Positions 841 to 6,554 of a stretch of DNA of 6,554 bases are shown here, in pieces; the first letter of the stretch is position 1; the number at the start of each line of letters is the position of its first letter. The notes under the pieces were generated by a model that was not told the origin of the DNA, did not search any database, and worked only from the letters and a program-made list of their open reading frames with translations. The translations under genes were made by a program, and so were the position numbers. The DNA lies in NCBI GenBank assembly GCA_030620925.1, contig JAUXIQ010000118.1:1-6554 (forward strand), given 5' to 3'. The stretch is from JAUXIQ01 sp030620925 [NCBI: Nitrospinota bacterium]. Its GTDB lineage: Bacteria > JAUXIQ01.

Positions 841-1887
841 TCAGGCATCTATTAGGGGAACAGTGACGGCGCGGGTATCGGCCCCGAATGTAGGGATAAA
901 TACAGAGTGGGGTCCGGCCCCGCCGGCGACGACGATCATGATATCCTCCGGCCTGTCCGCAATAGGAATCAAATCCTCTCCCTTAAGGGGTAACCCCTGG
1001 GCCTCCCGCCTGCTTACCACTCCCTCCAGCGCTTCTGGTGAAAAATAGGAAACGTGGGCTTTCGATTTTTCGAAGAGGAAACGTTTAACCTCTTCTTTAT
1101 CGAACCCTCCCTTATGAACGATTGCCGCGTGCTCGGGGCAGAGCAGCACCAGGGGCTCGCCGCCCATGAGGATGTTGTTGGTGCCCACTGCGTTCATGGA
1201 ACCGGCGATGGTGGTGAGCACTCCTTCGGCGGTCTTGCTGTACATATCTATGGCGTTGGTGGTCCCCGCCGCTCCCACCGAAGTAACCGTGCTCTGCTCC
1301 GGAGCGAACCCCCGCTCCACGTGGAGCGGCTGCCAGGGATTCCTCTCTTCGTTCTCAGCCAGGCAAAAGCTGTATTTCCCCGGCTGACCGGCGGTGGCCC
1401 TGTCCAGCTTACCCGGAATCCCGCCACCCAGGTTCATCATGACCAGCCTCACCGCCCGGCCGATGGTGGCGTTGGCCCGGTTCCCCTGACCCAGACAGTT
1501 GTATCCCCAGTTCATTTCCAGTTTCCGGGTTACAGGCCCGTTCACTATGATGAGCGGGGATACGGGATTGGTGGTAGCCTGGAGACCGTATAGATTGAAA
1601 GGTCTTTCCGCTATGGCTCTCACCGCCGCAACTACCACCGGGAAATAATCGGGCAGGCAGCCGGCCATCACCGCGTTTACGGCTACCTTTTCCACCGTGG
1701 CTTCGGCCCATCTGGGGGGTATCACACCGATAACGTCTTGGGCGGGCAGGCTCACCGATTCGAGCATCCGCCCCACCCTCTCCTCGGTGGGTGGAACTAT
1801 TGGTAGCCCGTCCGTCTGCCCCAGGGAATAGTAGTGGTCGTTCACCACCTCCAGAAAATCGAGTTCCTCGGAAGTATCACCGCCCAT
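841..1887 (-). CDS. Uncharacterised conserved protein (348 aa), neighbour of the UGSC selenoprotein
   Basis: A complete 348-residue frame, probably cytoplasmic: no signal peptide or obvious membrane helix. I do not know a function. Visible landmarks are TDGLPIVPPTEERV (25-38), IPPRWAEATVEKVAVNAVMAGC (56-77, with Cys77), the glycine-rich NLGGGIPGK (152-160), CLAENEE (175-181), a Gly/Ala/Thr-rich segment with GTNN (235-238), MGGEPLVLLCPEHA (241-254) and AGGAGPHS (321-328) near the end. From memory, this TDGLP...PPTEE opening belongs to uncharacterised proteins often encoded beside UGSC-type selenoproteins; I cannot verify that here. The ATG at 1887 is preceded by AGAGGT nine bases upstream, a fair ribosome site. 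It lies 36 nt after the selenoprotein stop, with an intrinsic-terminator-like hairpin in the gap, so its expression may be lower than that of the upstream genes. A role as partner subunit or as enzyme of the same pathway is inferred from position only. Confidence 0.85.
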   Translation of the reverse strand: MGGDTSEELDFLEVVNDHYYSLGQTDGLPIVPPTEERVGRMLESVSLPAQDVIGVIPPRWAEATVEKVAVNAVMAGCLPDYFPVVVAAVRAIAERPFNLYGLQATTNPVSPLIIVNGPVTRKLEMNWGYNCLGQGNRANATIGRAVRLVMMNLGGGIPGKLDRATAGQPGKYSFCLAENEERNPWQPLHVERGFAPEQSTVTSVGAAGTTNAIDMYSKTAEGVLTTIAGSMNAVGTNNILMGGEPLVLLCPEHAAIVHKGGFDKEEVKRFLFEKSKAHVSYFSPEALEGVVSRREAQGLPLKGEDLIPIADRPEDIMIVVAGGAGPHSVFIPTFGADTRAVTVPLIDA

Positions 1888-1917: not shown

Positions 1918-1939
1918 AAAAAATCACCCTTTCGGGTGA
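1918..1939 (-). terminator. Intrinsic-terminator-like hairpin overlapping the selenoprotein stop codon
   Basis: On the - strand a perfect 6-bp stem, TCACCC / GGGTGA, closes a GAAA tetraloop (GNRA type) and is followed directly by six Ts. The final TGA of the stem is the stop codon of the UGSC gene. Stem, loop and T-tract fit a compact rho-independent terminator. Because the 348-residue gene starts 31 nt further on in the same direction, it would act as a partial terminator or attenuator, or as a 3'-end stabiliser, inside the operon. The stem is short, so it may well be leaky. Confidence 0.6.
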
Positions 1940-2475
1940 GACGTGAGGGCCTCTATTATCTCCTCCACCACCTTCCCCGCCTCATCCCTCACCGACCCCT
2001 CATCGAGGCTCCCGAAGGGGTGCGGCACCATTACTATGGGAAGGGAAGGTGTGCCCAGCGACTCGGATTCCGCCCTGCCCAGATGATAAAACTCCTGTGA
2101 ACAAACGGTTACCGTGGGTATACCGGCTTTCTCGAACTCGACCGCGTCATGGACACTCCATGACGTGCAGGAACCTCAATCCCCCAGGCCGGTGATGACC
2201 GAATCGCACCCAAGCAACTCGGCCCTAATTTCTTCAGGGGCGGGTGCCGCAACGGTGGGTTTCCTTCGCCTGGTCACGGAAGTAGAGGGGTATCGGTCCA
2301 GCAACAACTCCTCCAGGGTGGACAGCAGTATATCGAAGTTCGGTTTACCGTTATCCAACATGCCTATGTTTTTACCCTCCACGCCGCTCAGCCTGGCCGA
2401 AATATCAGTGCCGGGCATGCTGGAGGGGGCGGTGGGATCCAGCAGTTTCAGCTCCCGCGGTAATTTGTCATTCAT
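1924..2475 (-). CDS. UGSC-family selenoprotein, TGA at codon 100 read as selenocysteine
   Basis: A 183-residue protein if the in-frame TGA at 2178-2176 is read as selenocysteine; the real stop is TGA at 1926-1924. The N-terminal half has LDPTAP (12-17) and KNIGMLDNGKPNFDIL (35-50), then GCDSVITGLGD leads to Sec100-Gly-Ser-Cys103, the U-x-x-C redox motif that names the family. The C-terminal half continues as well-formed protein: VHDAVEFEKAGIPTVTVC (108-125), QEFYHLGR and IVMVPHPFGS. The region resembles the Sec site of GrdB-type glycine/betaine reductase subunits, where a U-x-x-C motif precedes an E-x-A-GIP segment; this is from memory and suggests a selenol-dependent reductase-like role. The ATG at 2475 has GGAGGT five bases upstream. 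A SECIS-like stem follows the TGA. It lies 51 nt after the CoA-transferase gene in the same direction. Standard gene calling would report only 99 residues. Substrate unknown. Confidence 0.88.
2145..2165 (-). promoter_or_regulatory. Bacterial SECIS element for the Sec100 codon
   Basis: Read on the - strand, 10 nt after the TGA there is a perfect 9-bp inverted repeat, CGTCATGGA and TCCATGACG, around a GTG loop. Bacterial SECIS elements lie inside the coding region just after the UGA and have a short apical loop with a G in its first two positions, roughly 16-37 nt downstream of the UGA. Here the first loop base is G and it is the 20th base after the TGA. The stem codes for part of Thr-Ser-Trp-Ser-Val-His-Asp. 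It would bind SelB; the organism must then have selA, selB, selC and selD elsewhere. Confidence 0.85.
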
Positions 2476-2526
2476 CCCGCACCTCCATAATAAGTGTGAA
2501 AAAGTATAAGGCTGCCTTCCTCGTCG

Positions 2527-3747
2527 CTACACTACTCCTTCTTCCCGCAGCTTTTCCACCTCCTCAGGACTGTAGCCCAACTCTCCGAATACCTCTTCGT
2601 TATTCTGGCCGAGCTGAGGGGCGGGGTTCCTGGGGCCGCAAGGGGTCTTTGAAAGCTTCACCGGACAACCCATGATCTTGATCTTTCCCGCCACCGGGTG
2701 ATCCTGCTCCACTAACATGTCGCCCGCCAGCACGTGCGGGTCGTTCACCAGGTCCTTGTAGGTGTAGACCGGGCAGACCAGGATGTCTTCCTTCTCCAGT
2801 ATCTCTATCCATTCGTCGGTGGTTTTGGTAAGGAACATCTTCTCTACATATTCATGAAGCTGTTCCTGGTTCTCCTGCCTCTTTGCCACTGTTTCGTATA
2901 GGGGGTCGTTCTCCAGGTGTTCCAGGTCCATTACCCGGCAGACGGCCGGCCAGCGACTATCGGTGAAGGAATCGGCGACCAGGTAAGAATCCCTGGTCTT
3001 ATAGACTCCGCATATCTCGCGCCGGTATACACCGGTATGGGAAAGGTAGTGTCCCTTGCGGCGCTTGATCTTGTCCATATCCAGGTTAGCGGTCGGCAGC
3101 ATCTCCCAGGATTGGAGGGCCATCTGGCTGTCCAGCAGAGAGACCGCGACCCTCTGACCCTCGCCGGTGCGCTCCCTGTGAAAAAGGGCAACGACTATGC
3201 CGTAAGCGCTGTTCATGCCCCCCACCTGATCGGCGATGGCAGCACCCACTGGCGTGGGCGGCGAATCGGGCCCGCCGGTAACGCTCATTATCCCGCCCAT
3301 GGCCTGGGCCATGGTATCCATTCCCGGCTTGTGAGCGTAGGGGCCTTCCTGCCCGTAACAGGAAGCCGAGCAGTAGATGATGCGGGGGTTAATCCCTGAA
3401 AGCTTTTCATAGCTGAATCCCAGCGCCCCGGCCACGCCCGGCCGGTAATTTTCCAGGAAGACGTCGCAGACCTTTGCCAGCCGGTAAATAATTTCTTTTC
3501 CCTTATCCTGCTTTATATCGACCGTGATGCTCCCCTTGTTGCGGTTCAGGGTCAGGAAGCAGAGGTTCTCTCCATTAACCAGGTAATCCTTCTCGAACCG
3601 CTCCGGGCGGCGCGTCAACTCGCCTCTGTCCGGCGGCTCAACCTTTATCACCTCGGCACCCATGTCGGCAAGCAACATGGAGCATACGGGTCCCACCTGG
3701 AATCTGGAGAGGTCCAACACCCTGATTCCCTCAAGCGGCAGTTTCAT
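2527..3747 (-). CDS. CaiB/BaiF family (type III) CoA-transferase
   Basis: This enzyme class moves CoA between carboxylic acids through an aspartyl-CoA mixed anhydride, as in formyl-CoA, carnitine and benzylsuccinate CoA-transferases. From the ATG at 3747 the protein has 406 residues and opens MKLPLEGIRVLDLSRFQVGP, the usual family start, followed by ADMGAEVIKVEPP, LNRNKGSITVD, ENYRPG and CSASCYGQEGPYAHKPGMD. The Asp in GMDTMAQAMGG (residue 144 from this start) matches the catalytic aspartate. A G-rich Shine-Dalgarno-like run lies just before ATG 3747. An in-frame ATG at 3789 would add 14 untypical residues and overlap the amidase stop by 7 nt, with only a weak site in front; I prefer 3747 but coupling from 3789 is possible. 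It lies between the amidase and selenoprotein genes on the same strand. CoA donor and acceptor cannot be predicted; the family name is firm. Confidence 0.93.
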   Translation of the reverse strand: MKLPLEGIRVLDLSRFQVGPVCSMLLADMGAEVIKVEPPDRGELTRRPERFEKDYLVNGENLCFLTLNRNKGSITVDIKQDKGKEIIYRLAKVCDVFLENYRPGVAGALGFSYEKLSGINPRIIYCSASCYGQEGPYAHKPGMDTMAQAMGGIMSVTGGPDSPPTPVGAAIADQVGGMNSAYGIVVALFHRERTGEGQRVAVSLLDSQMALQSWEMLPTANLDMDKIKRRKGHYLSHTGVYRREICGVYKTRDSYLVADSFTDSRWPAVCRVMDLEHLENDPLYETVAKRQENQEQLHEYVEKMFLTKTTDEWIEILEKEDILVCPVYTYKDLVNDPHVLAGDMLVEQDHPVAGKIKIMGCPVKLSKTPCGPRNPAPQLGQNNEEVFGELGYSPEEVEKLREEGVV

Positions 3748-3782
3748 TTCCTCCCCCCTCTTGAAAGGTAAAATATCTTTAT

Positions 3783-5210
3783 CTACCATATCTCTTTGTA
3801 TTTGTGCGCCCAGGGCAGCGCCTCTTCGAAGGCGGCCGAAGCCTTGAGCACGGTCGCCTCATCGTAGCGCCGCCCCACTATCTGTAGTCCCACGGGGAGG
3901 CCGTCTTCCGTCCACCCGCAGGGTAGGCTGGCTGCTGGCTGACCGGTGAGGTTAAAAGGAAAGGTCAGGGCAACCCAGCTCAGTGGGCCCAATTTCCTGC
4001 CTTCGATTTCATCAACCCTGGATAGCTCTGCGGAAAACGGAGGAACGGCGGTTGACGGACACAACAGCAGATCGTAGCGTTCGAAGAAGGAGTTCACCTG
4101 TCCCCAGAAAGCCTCCCGCTGGTGGCCTGCTTTGACGTAGTCGTTGGCGGTAACGTTGTCCGATGCCTGGAGCATCTCCACCAGGGTGGGGTCCATCTTC
4201 CCGCCCCACTCCTCCAGCTTACCGCCCCAGGCGCCGTAAACATCTGCCTGGGCTATGGTCATAAAAACAGCTTCCGGATCATCGAAGCCTGGGTCTTCTT
4301 CCACAAACTCGCAGCCCAGCCCCGCAAAAACCCGCGCCGCTTCCCCGGCGATGGCGCGCACCTGGGGGTCCACAGCAGCGTAGCCGAAGTCGGGCGTCCA
4401 GGCCACGCGCAGGCCCCTCACGCCGCCCTCGCACGAGTCCAGGTATGATATTCCCTGGTCGGGTAGTGAGGCGCGGTCCCGGTCATCAGGTCCGGCGATT
4501 GAGTCCATCATGAGGGCCGCGTCGCGCACGGTGCGGGTCATGGGGCCGGTGTGCGAAAAAGAACCCATCCCCGGGAAGCCTGCTCCTTTGGCCACCCTTC
4601 CGTACTGGGGCTTCAATCCGTAGACACCGCAGAAACTGGCGGGTATGCGGATGGAACCGCCGCCGTCCGTGCCCACGGCCAGGGGCCCCATACCGGTGGC
4701 CACCGCCACCCCCGCCCCGCCGCTGGAGCCGCCTGATGTGCGGTCCGTCACCCAGGGGTTATAGGTGGTGCCTAAGAGGGGGCTGTTGGTCACGCCTTTG
4801 TGTCCGAATTCGGGGGTGTTGGTCTTGCCCAGGATGATGGCGCCCGCCCCTTTCAGTTTATCCACCACCACGGCGTCCTCATCGGGAACGAAGTCCTCGA
4901 AAATTTTGGAGCCCAAGGTGGTCCTCACTCCTTTGGTGAAAACCAGGTCCTTGATGGAGACCGGAACTCCATGCAGCGGGCCCAGCTCTTCGCCGCGCCC
5001 CACGGCCTCTTCCGCCGATTTAGCGGCATCCCGCGCCGCGCCGTCGGTTAGCGTGCAAAAAGCGTTCAACTTCGGGTTCAGCTCTTCTATCCTTTCCAGG
5101 GCGGCGTCCACCGCCTCCACCGGCGAGAGCTTCTTGTCTCTTATGGCGGCAGCCATTTCCGTGGCGGGCATAAGACAGAGTTCTTTATCGGCCATGAGTC
5201 CATCCCCCAT
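3783..5210 (-). CDS. Amidase-signature family hydrolase (GatA/AtzF-like)
   Basis: A 475-residue serine hydrolase of the amidase-signature family, which cleaves amide bonds through a Ser-cisSer-Lys triad. The triad is intact: Lys87 in PVSIKDL, cis-Ser162 in TSGGSSGG, and nucleophile Ser186 in GTDGGGSIRIP. The spacings (75 and 24 residues) equal those of fatty acid amide hydrolase. Other landmarks are LGKTNTPEFGHKG (128-140) and, near the C-terminus, NLTGQPAASLPCG and GLPVGLQIVG. Length is normal, with no signal peptide. It is the first gene of the - strand cluster. No gatB or gatC lies in this window, and the link to a CoA-transferase favours a catabolic amidase over the tRNA-dependent amidotransferase subunit, although annotation pipelines may call it gatA. 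Start ATG 5210 was chosen; ATG 5195 (MADKEL...), preceded by a G-rich run, is an equal alternative. Substrate unknown. Confidence 0.93.
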   Translation of the reverse strand: MGDGLMADKELCLMPATEMAAAIRDKKLSPVEAVDAALERIEELNPKLNAFCTLTDGAARDAAKSAEEAVGRGEELGPLHGVPVSIKDLVFTKGVRTTLGSKIFEDFVPDEDAVVVDKLKGAGAIILGKTNTPEFGHKGVTNSPLLGTTYNPWVTDRTSGGSSGGAGVAVATGMGPLAVGTDGGGSIRIPASFCGVYGLKPQYGRVAKGAGFPGMGSFSHTGPMTRTVRDAALMMDSIAGPDDRDRASLPDQGISYLDSCEGGVRGLRVAWTPDFGYAAVDPQVRAIAGEAARVFAGLGCEFVEEDPGFDDPEAVFMTIAQADVYGAWGGKLEEWGGKMDPTLVEMLQASDNVTANDYVKAGHQREAFWGQVNSFFERYDLLLCPSTAVPPFSAELSRVDEIEGRKLGPLSWVALTFPFNLTGQPAASLPCGWTEDGLPVGLQIVGRRYDEATVLKASAAFEEALPWAHKYKEIW

Positions 5211-5417: not shown

Positions 5418-6554
5418 ATGAATTGCCCCCAATGCCAAACCGAAAACCCGGAAACGAGAAAGTTTTGCCGGGAGTGCGGGTCGAAACTTTCGCTGGCCTG
5501 TGCTCAATGCGGCTATGAGAACCTGCCCGGAGACAAGTTCTGCGGCGAATGCGGGCATGAGCTGGCGGCTCCTGCCGAACAGCAGCCCCCCAAAGAGCTA
5601 TCCTTCGAAGAGAAGCTGGACAAAATCCAGCGCTACCTCCCCGGCGGAGTCACCGAAAAGATACTGGCCCAGCGGGGCAAGATCGAGGGGGAGCGGAAAC
5701 AGGTAACCGTCATGTTCTGCGACATGGAGGGATATACCTCACTTGCCGAGAGGGTTGGGCCGGAAGAAATCTACTCCATAATGGACGAAGTCTACGAGCT
5801 GCTCATCCATAACGTCCACGACTACGGCGGTACAGTCAACGAGCTGACCGGCGATGGCGTAATGGCCCTGTTCGGCGCGCCGATAGCACAGGAGGACGCC
5901 CCACAGCGCGCCATTCGCTCAGCACTGGCCGTCCACCGGGAGATGGTCAGATTCAGCGATAGTCGTAGGGGCGGCGCTCGCTCCGCCCAAAATGTCCCCG
6001 CCCTTAAAATGCGCGTGGGCATCCATACCGGCCCCGTGGTGGTGGGAACCGTAGGGAATGATTTAAGAGTGGAGTTCAAGGCGGTGGGGGACACGGTGAA
6101 CCTGTCCTCACGTATGCAGGAGATAGCCGAGCCGGGCACCACCTACGTAACCGATGATACATTTAAGCTCACCGAGGGCCTGTTCCGTTTCGAGGCCATG
6201 GGTGAGCGTGAAATAAAGGGCAAGGAAGAGCCTGTCAGCACCTACCGGGTCATCGCACCCAGCGCCAGGCGGACGCGCTTCGACGTAAACGCCGAACGCG
6301 GCTTGACCCCCTTCATAGGGCGAGAAAAAGAGCTGGAGCTTCTGCTGGACGGCTACCAGCGGGCCAGGGAAGGGAGGGGCCAGGCGTTCTCGATAGTGGC
6401 CGAGGCGGGCGTGGGTAAGTCCAGGCTCCTGTACGAGTTCAGGAAAGCAGTGACCAACGAGGACGCCACCTTTTTAGAAGGCAGATGCCTCTCCTACAGC
6501 GGCGGCACGGCCTACCATCCGATTATAGACCTCCTGAAATCCAACTTCGATATC
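5418..6554 (+). CDS. Double zinc ribbon - class III nucleotide cyclase - P-loop ATPase protein, 3' end cut by window
   Basis: The first 379 codons are present. Two zinc ribbons open the protein (Cys3/6/17/20 and Cys28/31/42/45). A linker helix follows, then a class III adenylate/guanylate cyclase domain at about residues 93-265: metal aspartates Asp102 (MFCDMEGYTSL) and Asp146 (TGDGVMALFG), GIHTGPVVVG, and GDTVNLSSR with Asn228 and Arg232. The purine-specifying Lys of adenylate cyclases appears to be Glu142, so nucleotide choice and activity are uncertain. From about residue 285 (TPFIGREKELELL) a STAND/AAA-type ATPase begins, with P-loop AEAGVGKSRL and Lys334. Such fusions usually run past 1000 residues with C-terminal TPR repeats, expected beyond the window. 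The start ATG 5418 puts the first zinc Cys at residue 3; a weak AAGAGAG-like ribosome site precedes it. Probably a cytoplasmic sensor-regulator, transcribed away from the amidase cluster. Ligand and target are unknown. Confidence 0.9.
   Translation, partial: MNCPQCQTENPETRKFCRECGSKLSLACAQCGYENLPGDKFCGECGHELAAPAEQQPPKELSFEEKLDKIQRYLPGGVTEKILAQRGKIEGERKQVTVMFCDMEGYTSLAERVGPEEIYSIMDEVYELLIHNVHDYGGTVNELTGDGVMALFGAPIAQEDAPQRAIRSALAVHREMVRFSDSRRGGARSAQNVPALKMRVGIHTGPVVVGTVGNDLRVEFKAVGDTVNLSSRMQEIAEPGTTYVTDDTFKLTEGLFRFEAMGEREIKGKEEPVSTYRVIAPSARRTRFDVNAERGLTPFIGREKELELLLDGYQRAREGRGQAFSIVAEAGVGKSRLLYEFRKAVTNEDATFLEGRCLSYSGGTAYHPIIDLLKSNFDI
5963..5990. repeat. GC-rich palindromic insert within the cyclase gene
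   Basis: GGGCGG (5969-5974) and CCGCCC (5983-5988) form a 6-bp stem with an 8-nt loop, preceded by GTAG. It looks like the short GTAGGGGCGG...CCGCCC palindromes scattered in many genomes. It codes for SRRGGARSAQ (182-191), a low-complexity Arg/Gly stretch in a variable loop just before the conserved KMRVGIHTG motif. It keeps the frame. Only one copy is seen in this window, so its repetitive nature is a guess. Confidence 0.35.

Follow-up and report, generated by a model that had tools for sequence, protein, structure and literature searches.

Glycine, betaine, sarcosine and D-proline reductases have selenoprotein B subunits, GrdB and PrdB, each of which is paired with a pyruvoyl subunit, GrdE or PrdA. 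Another selenocysteine (Sec) family, UGSC, was among the most numerous selenoprotein families in the Global Ocean Sampling data, with 255 sequences (PMC2398784). The same 2008 paper supposed a thioredoxin-like (Trx-like) fold for UGSC and described a UGSC/Unknown_1 fusion, in which UGSC is joined to a conserved domain of unknown function; the portion of the paper available to us says nothing on gene neighbourhood or co-occurrence for this pair (PMC2398784). In an initial annotation of the DNA studied here, UGSC was taken to be a known class whose biochemical role is undefined, and this agrees with the available portions of three papers (PMC2398784, PMC9312934, PMC13188914). We found no biochemical function for UGSC in the literature searched, which lay mostly outside subscription journals and was available in part. 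Beyond the known family, what is new here is a near-constant partner gene, a kinship to GrdB and PrdB, and a structural model that is not evidently Trx-like.

A UGSC gene with an in-frame TGA

The stretch that we analysed, called the window below, is 6,554 nucleotides long and is the whole of contig C223 of a Nitrospinota draft genome (2.5 Mb, 445 contigs, 89.47% complete, 3.55% contaminated). The features discussed here are the following.

841..1887, minus strand: partner gene, 348 aa, which co-occurs with UGSC; no Pfam or NCBIfam family
1924..2475, minus strand: UGSC-family selenoprotein gene, 183 aa plus stop, from readthrough translation and family profiles
2146..2164, minus strand: SECIS-like hairpin with an 8-bp stem and loop GUG, from folding and comparison across loci
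2167..2169, minus strand: codon of Cys103, which completes the U-x-x-C pair and does not vary across a 70-row alignment
2176..2178, minus strand: in-frame TGA, read as Sec at residue 100 from the paralogues, the relatives' column and the hairpin
2482..2486, minus strand: Shine-Dalgarno-like GGAGG of the UGSC gene, from the sequence
2527..3789, minus strand: CoA-transferase family III gene; the start is more likely at 3747, behind GGGGGGAGG
3783..5210, minus strand: amidase gene, first of a probable operon, from the ORF list and family profiles

The UGSC gene starts with ATG at 2475-2473 on the minus strand and ends with TGA at 1926-1924. Translation of 2475-1924 showed the frame, coordinates and residue numbers of the initial annotation to be exact, and its statement that standard calling would yield a 99-residue fragment holds as well, the ORF list giving only a 99-residue ORF without recoding. 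The product has Gly-Ser-Cys after the internal TGA, followed by an EKAGIPTV segment. It matched NCBIfam NF041046 (UGSC_fam) at 153.8 bits against a cut-off of 125 (residues 33-178) and Pfam PF24696 (UGSC) at 178 bits against a cut-off of 25 (residues 11-178); because both matches cross the TGA, the two halves are one protein.

A recoded TGA also implied Sec machinery in the same genome, and selA, selB, two selD genes and tRNA-Sec (anticodon TCA) are all there, with selA and selB together on contig C407. The selD copies, on G000:C134 and G000:C51 (L013, L014), both score above the family cut-off. Each has one in-frame TGA, so SelD is probably itself a selenoprotein, present in two copies. Two other UGSC paralogues in this genome, 40% and 37% identical to the window protein, likewise carry an in-frame TGA. 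Directly after the second paralogue lies a gene for a 122-residue protein that by eye resembles AhpD/carboxymuconolactone decarboxylase (L025:1674-2042).

A survey of 386 genomes, nearly all distant kin, found UGSC at 62 places in 21 genomes, and 59 of the 62 had one in-frame TGA; the Sec column was checked for the places behind L111-L118. Homologues with Cys in place of Sec, for which a search had been suggested, do exist: among the named loci, which are the best 80 of 274 relatives, the Sec column is TGA in 38 and a Cys codon in 42, a count tilted towards Cys by one of the two search patterns, which specified GDCGSC. In the 70-row UGSC alignment (A2), from which 11 named loci were dropped (9 as near-duplicates, L097 for its unread bases and L101 for an over-long ORF), Cys103 is invariant, as expected of the Sec100-Cys103 U-x-x-C pair that had been proposed. 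An unrooted tree of 70 UGSC members has at least 4 Sec/Cys changes, with Sec spread over most deep branches. It is unlikely, from these comparisons, that the window TGA is a sequencing accident, given the two TGA paralogues, the 59 of 62 places with TGA and the presence of TGA or Cys in all of the best 80 of 274 relatives.

The initial annotation regarded relatives with neither TGA nor Cys at this position as evidence against recoding. None occurred among the named relatives (the best 80 of 274), but a profile search of plasmid regions gave 16 UGSC-like domains with 2 TGA, 12 Cys and 2 Met at the Sec column. The Met-type sequences are fused distant relatives in Sporomusa termitida and Vibrio europaeus, in which the second Cys is also missing. 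Both adjoin aconitase X, and against the Pfam UGSC cut-off of 25 they score 28.3 and 24.9 bits, one above and one below. They are the edge of the family and bear more on its function than on the coding of the window gene. The UGSC-partner fusions with Met, at L211:6326-8050 and L215:6323-8008, lie close to DUF126 as well as to aconitase X and are possibly a separate non-redox clade.

Two further observations concern how relatives are labelled. On plasmid pFER4 of Paracoccus ferrooxidans (L213) a TGA-type UGSC gene is annotated as two hypothetical proteins, and selB lies about 4.4 kb downstream of it on the same plasmid. Three MAG contigs titled Bifidobacterium breve (L089, L093, L107) carry UGSC that by eye is like that of the Actinomycetota MAGs L069 and L080, and their labels look wrong.

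A SECIS-like hairpin in TGA-type genes

A hairpin downstream of a Sec TGA is termed a bacterial SECIS. Counted from the T of the TGA, the stem here joins bases 15-22 to bases 26-33, with 8 of 8 pairs in the window. Across 45 distinct TGA-type sequences, 342 of 360 stem cells were paired and the loop was GUN in all 45, whereas in 42 distinct Cys-type sequences 183 of 336 stem cells were paired, no sequence reached 7 of the 8 pairs and none had a loop starting with GU; relatedness among the sequences inflates these pair counts. The mean folding z was -1.53 for TGA (n=46) and 0.00 for Cys (n=42; p 1.2e-7). When the window gene was recoded synonymously with its own codon usage (n=2000), a fraction of 0.0065 matched its 8 pairs, and 28 of 46 loci reached 0.05 in this test. 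The window hairpin alone is modest, with 14 of 200 shuffles folding equally well, and that of the paralogue L026 showed no excess (113 of 200 shuffles folded as well). No Rfam family was found in the window at gathering score, and a permissive scan of 1900-2500 gave sub-threshold, unrelated families only.

The TGA at 2178-2176 could instead be a real stop, leaving a 99-residue fragment or a decayed gene. Standard ORF calling does end there, and for two TGA-type plasmid relatives the annotation gives nothing beyond hypothetical proteins that are short or split. We consider this reading extremely improbable: the family profile crosses the TGA, Cys stands at the column in 42 of the 80 named relatives (best 80 of 274), three TGA paralogues share one genome with the Sec machinery, and the hairpin is present in TGA genes and absent from Cys genes. 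The same observations, with the matches in both family libraries, bear out the UGSC-family selenoprotein that had been proposed. As judged from sequence comparison, it is almost certain that the apparent stop encodes Sec and that the gene makes a Sec protein.

A near-constant partner gene

The next gene downstream of UGSC in the window is the one that we call the partner. Scanned against Pfam and NCBIfam, 63 rows of partner relatives gave no convincing family match; one member of the 63 weakly matched the NCBIfam model of a nickel-dependent hexonate epimerase (E 0.0064). Conserved residues of the partner include Cys77, Cys175, Glu178 and His253. The partner alignment (A3) omits 18 of the 80 named loci, where the partner ORF is lacking, partial, near-duplicate or disturbed. 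As a relative of GrdE/PrdA the partner gave an hhalign probability of 0.1 (8 GrdE rows), and hhalign also rejected it as a relative of GrdB/PrdB. PDB sequence searches gave no credible match with either the partner or UGSC.

The three UGSC genes of the window's genome are matched by three partner copies on the same three contigs. In the 386 genomes, UGSC occurred in 21, the partner in 21 and both in 20 (Fisher p 3e-31). One exception is a short UGSC-like fragment (E 1.5e-8) in G072, a genome with GrdB and no partner; the other is a partner fragment of about 50 residues in G365, which has no UGSC. Among the best 80 of 274 relatives, a partner homologue was present at 76 loci, within 350 bp of UGSC on the same strand at 71 and 0.9 to 3.7 kb away at five; it lies downstream of UGSC in 55 and upstream in 21, and at four loci (L031, L032, L050, L087) UGSC and partner form one fused ORF. 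No partner was found at the other four of these 80, namely L055 and L056, with less than 0.8 kb of upstream sequence, and the Microbacterium loci L088 and L090, with about 8 kb on both sides.

Plasmids gave a similar picture. All 13 UGSC records of a plasmid collection fall within its 24 partner records, and when 17 of the 24 regions were compared, a profile search found a UGSC-like domain in 16; in the remaining one, the Haladaptatus region L218, no UGSC was found within 4 kb of the partner. These records annotate the partner as a hypothetical protein or not at all. On four of the 17 plasmid regions, all haloarchaeal (L209, L217, L220, L223), two partner homologues flank one UGSC gene, and this order perhaps reflects two kinds of partner subunit.

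Given the co-occurrence, the adjacency and the natural fusions, UGSC and the partner product very probably form one two-subunit enzyme. The Unknown_1 domain is probably the partner described here, as far as the available portion of its description allows a comparison (PMC2398784).

Varied neighbours and occasional thioredoxin genes

In the window, the amidase, CoA-transferase III, UGSC and partner genes run in the same direction with short gaps, so they probably form one operon. A divergent plus-strand gene at 5418-6554, cut by the contig end, encodes zinc ribbons, an adenylate/guanylate cyclase domain and an AAA ATPase. Elsewhere the neighbours vary and include CoA-transferases, CoA lyases, tripartite-tricarboxylate and TRAP transporters, 6-phosphogluconate-type and zinc alcohol dehydrogenases, IlvD-type dehydratases and aconitase X. 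In Halalkalicoccus an amidase, a CoA-transferase (on the opposite strand), UGSC and the partner cluster in about 7 kb, and CoA-transferase genes like that of the window occurred at 12 of 97 loci, amidases like that of the window at 3 of 97.

We saw no recurrent pathway around UGSC: the commonest Pfam family occurred 5 times among 146 neighbour ORFs at 22 of 25 chosen loci. These 25 were 24 TGA-type loci and the Cys-type L036; L091, L094 and L109 gave no ORFs and L087 was partial. Among 105 neighbours at 16 Cys-type loci, the commonest were Zn-alcohol dehydrogenase (12) and IclR (6). Neighbour genes were called by a codon-position heuristic, longest-ORF calling having given many antisense frames, and the Pfam scan took in ORFs of up to 900 residues.

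In 3 of 10 plasmid regions an annotated trxB gene lies within about 2 kb of UGSC and its partner (Roseovarius, Arthrobacter, there with trxA, and Variovorax), and two of the 80 named loci (best 80 of 274 relatives) have TrxB-like genes within 5 kb, namely L038 and L043, where trxA is present as well in L043. No clear TrxB-like gene was found within 5 kb in 88 of 93 regions (80 named, 10 plasmid and 3 contigs of the window's genome), the window included. Weaker thioredoxin-type matches, left uncounted, were TrxB-like genes more than 5 kb away at L037 and L031, a 31-residue edge fragment at L104 and a trxA-like gene alone at L036. The presence of TrxB near UGSC in 5 of 93 regions favours thiol-linked turnover, though not as a general arrangement. 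Phosphosulfolactate synthase annotations occur near UGSC in a haloarchaeon (L208:4494-4961) and in Arthrobacter (L214:3666-4454), a possible hint of a sulfonate or organic-acid substrate.

Kinship to GrdB and PrdB

We compared 70 UGSC members with NCBIfam at E<=0.1. All 70 matched UGSC, 36 matched TIGR01917, 26 GrdF, 25 PrdB, 21 TIGR01918 and 12 GrdH, with a best TIGR01917 (GrdB) match of E 1.5e-7; the next model, an unrelated geranylgeranyl reductase, was matched by 11 of the 70 with a best E of 0.0008. In hhalign, UGSC aligned with 11 GrdB/PrdB sequences at a probability of 94.4 (E 8.8e-8, 64 columns, Sec on Sec), and the negative control, UGSC against GrdE, gave 1.3. By these profile comparisons the UGSC domain and the Sec domain of GrdB/PrdB are distantly related. 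The window protein is not itself a GrdB: it scored 20.8 bits against TIGR01917 (cut-off 602.2) and 17.6 bits against TIGR01918 (cut-off 65.45).

GrdE (PF09338) had no match in the window's draft genome; it was found in 5 of the 21 UGSC genomes and not found in the other 16. Since the partner is unlike GrdE/PrdA and PF09338 was mostly not found, glycine-reductase chemistry cannot simply carry over. A separate GrdB/PrdB-like gene with an in-frame TGA (G000:C300:2121-2765, L119) has an E of 1.7e-7 to TIGR01917; it lies in the window's genome, although no PF09338 was found there.

Predicted fold and invariant residues

The predicted structure of the window protein (pLDDT 94.7, pTM 0.87) repeats a strand and a helix five times, and Sec100 falls between strand 92-98 and helix 101-116. 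In a structure search this model aligned with a designed protein (Z 10.7, rmsd 3.5, 128 aligned), the receiver domain 1s8n (Z 10.4, rmsd 2.7, 117 aligned) and lumazine synthase (Z 9.1, rmsd 3.6, 124 aligned), so that its best structural matches are of the common doubly wound kind. The natural fusion L031 was also modelled (pLDDT 92.0), and its structure-search matches were all taken by the UGSC domain.

If UGSC were a general thiol-disulfide oxidoreductase with a Trx-like fold, its U-x-x-C would act on protein disulfides. That motif is present, and a sentence in a 2026 review that names UGSC ends with Trx-like proteins, although the available wording is ambiguous (PMC13188914). With its five beta-alpha units, however, the model does not look evidently Trx-like: it is confident (pLDDT 94.7), these units come in order, and the best-aligned structures are doubly wound, 1s8n for example. 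No thioredoxin appeared among the 50 structure-search matches listed, an absence that excludes nothing. The distant profile matches go to GrdB/PrdB, moreover, and a near-constant partner with catabolic neighbours better fits a dedicated enzyme. We therefore regard a general oxidoreductase as improbable.

Alignment and model together place invariant Asn42, Lys44 and Asn46 after strand 1, Lys72 after strand 2, Asp99-Sec100 and Cys103 after strand 3, and His152-Pro153 after strand 5. In the model these residues probably line one edge of the sheet, and the basic ones would suit a carboxylate. An Arthrobacter UGSC protein (L214:6995-7810) has a C-terminal NifU-like domain (27.2 bits, cut-off 27). 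Small proteins similar by eye to this domain are encoded at L043:12231-12527 and six more loci, making 7 of the 80 named (best 80 of 274 relatives); the one that was scanned matched no Pfam family.

A possible organic-acid reductase

Our explanation of the locus as a whole, which we hold to be slightly more probable than not, is that the UGSC selenoprotein and its partner would form a two-subunit reductase that acts on small organic acids and is regenerated by thiols. The partner subunit would bind the organic acid. The selenolate of Sec100, placed where the helix after strand 3 begins and probably close to the invariant Lys44, Lys72 and His152, would attack this substrate and reductively cleave a bond; Cys103 would then resolve the oxidised selenium, and a thioredoxin-type reductant would regenerate the pair. 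For the narrower statement that the UGSC-partner enzyme is a thiol-dependent reductase of an organic acid, we see roughly even chances.

The Met-type fused relatives, which lack the x-x-C, show that a UGSC scaffold need not carry the redox pair. Their function may have shifted, or the reaction may not depend on that pair. A rival reading is that UGSC and partner are a non-redox enzyme (a lyase, isomerase or hydrolase), with Sec or Cys acting as its nucleophile or base or having a structural role only. In its favour are those two fusions next to aconitase X, where Met stands at the Sec column and the second Cys is lost, and a neighbourhood that includes CoA-transferases, CoA lyases, aconitase X and transporters of organic acids. 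This reading seems rather unlikely to us all the same: the column has Sec or Cys at every named locus (the best 80 of 274 relatives, found with a partly biased search pattern) and in 14 of the 16 UGSC-like domains from plasmids, Cys103 is invariant in 70 aligned members, and trxA/trxB adjoin some UGSC copies. To our knowledge, Sec is also seldom retained where selenol chemistry is not needed.

Comparison with known systems

The near-constant partner and the GrdB/PrdB kinship make the function of the UGSC family testable, and the Cys-containing relatives in named Actinomycetota strains and haloarchaea, together with the recurrent CoA-transferase neighbours, also help here. For annotation, the lesson is that calling TGA as a stop shortens or splits UGSC genes and so hides the active site.

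With the UGSC family (NF041046/PF24696) the window protein shares the GD-U-GSC motif and Cys homologues at the same column. The window copy has no distinguishing feature and is, by its sequence, an ordinary new member of this known selenoprotein family.

The likeness to GrdB/PrdB (TIGR01917, TIGR01918, TIGR04483) lies in the U-x-x-C, E-x-x-G-I-P and H-P-x-G segments common to both, in the second subunit, and in the thioredoxin genes beside some UGSC copies. UGSC differs, however, in scoring far under the family cut-offs and in having a partner unlike the pyruvoyl GrdE/PrdA, and it also occurs in Actinomycetota and haloarchaea, with CoA-transferase, transporter and dehydrogenase neighbours. It is tempting to speculate, and we do so tentatively, with somewhat less than even confidence, that UGSC and its partner are a widespread third branch of the GrdB/PrdB superfamily. 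This would be a two-subunit selenol/thiol reductase of bacteria and archaea (Actinomycetota and haloarchaea among them), with a substrate-binding subunit unrelated to the pyruvoyl proteins, that reductively cleaves small organic acids in CoA-linked catabolic clusters.
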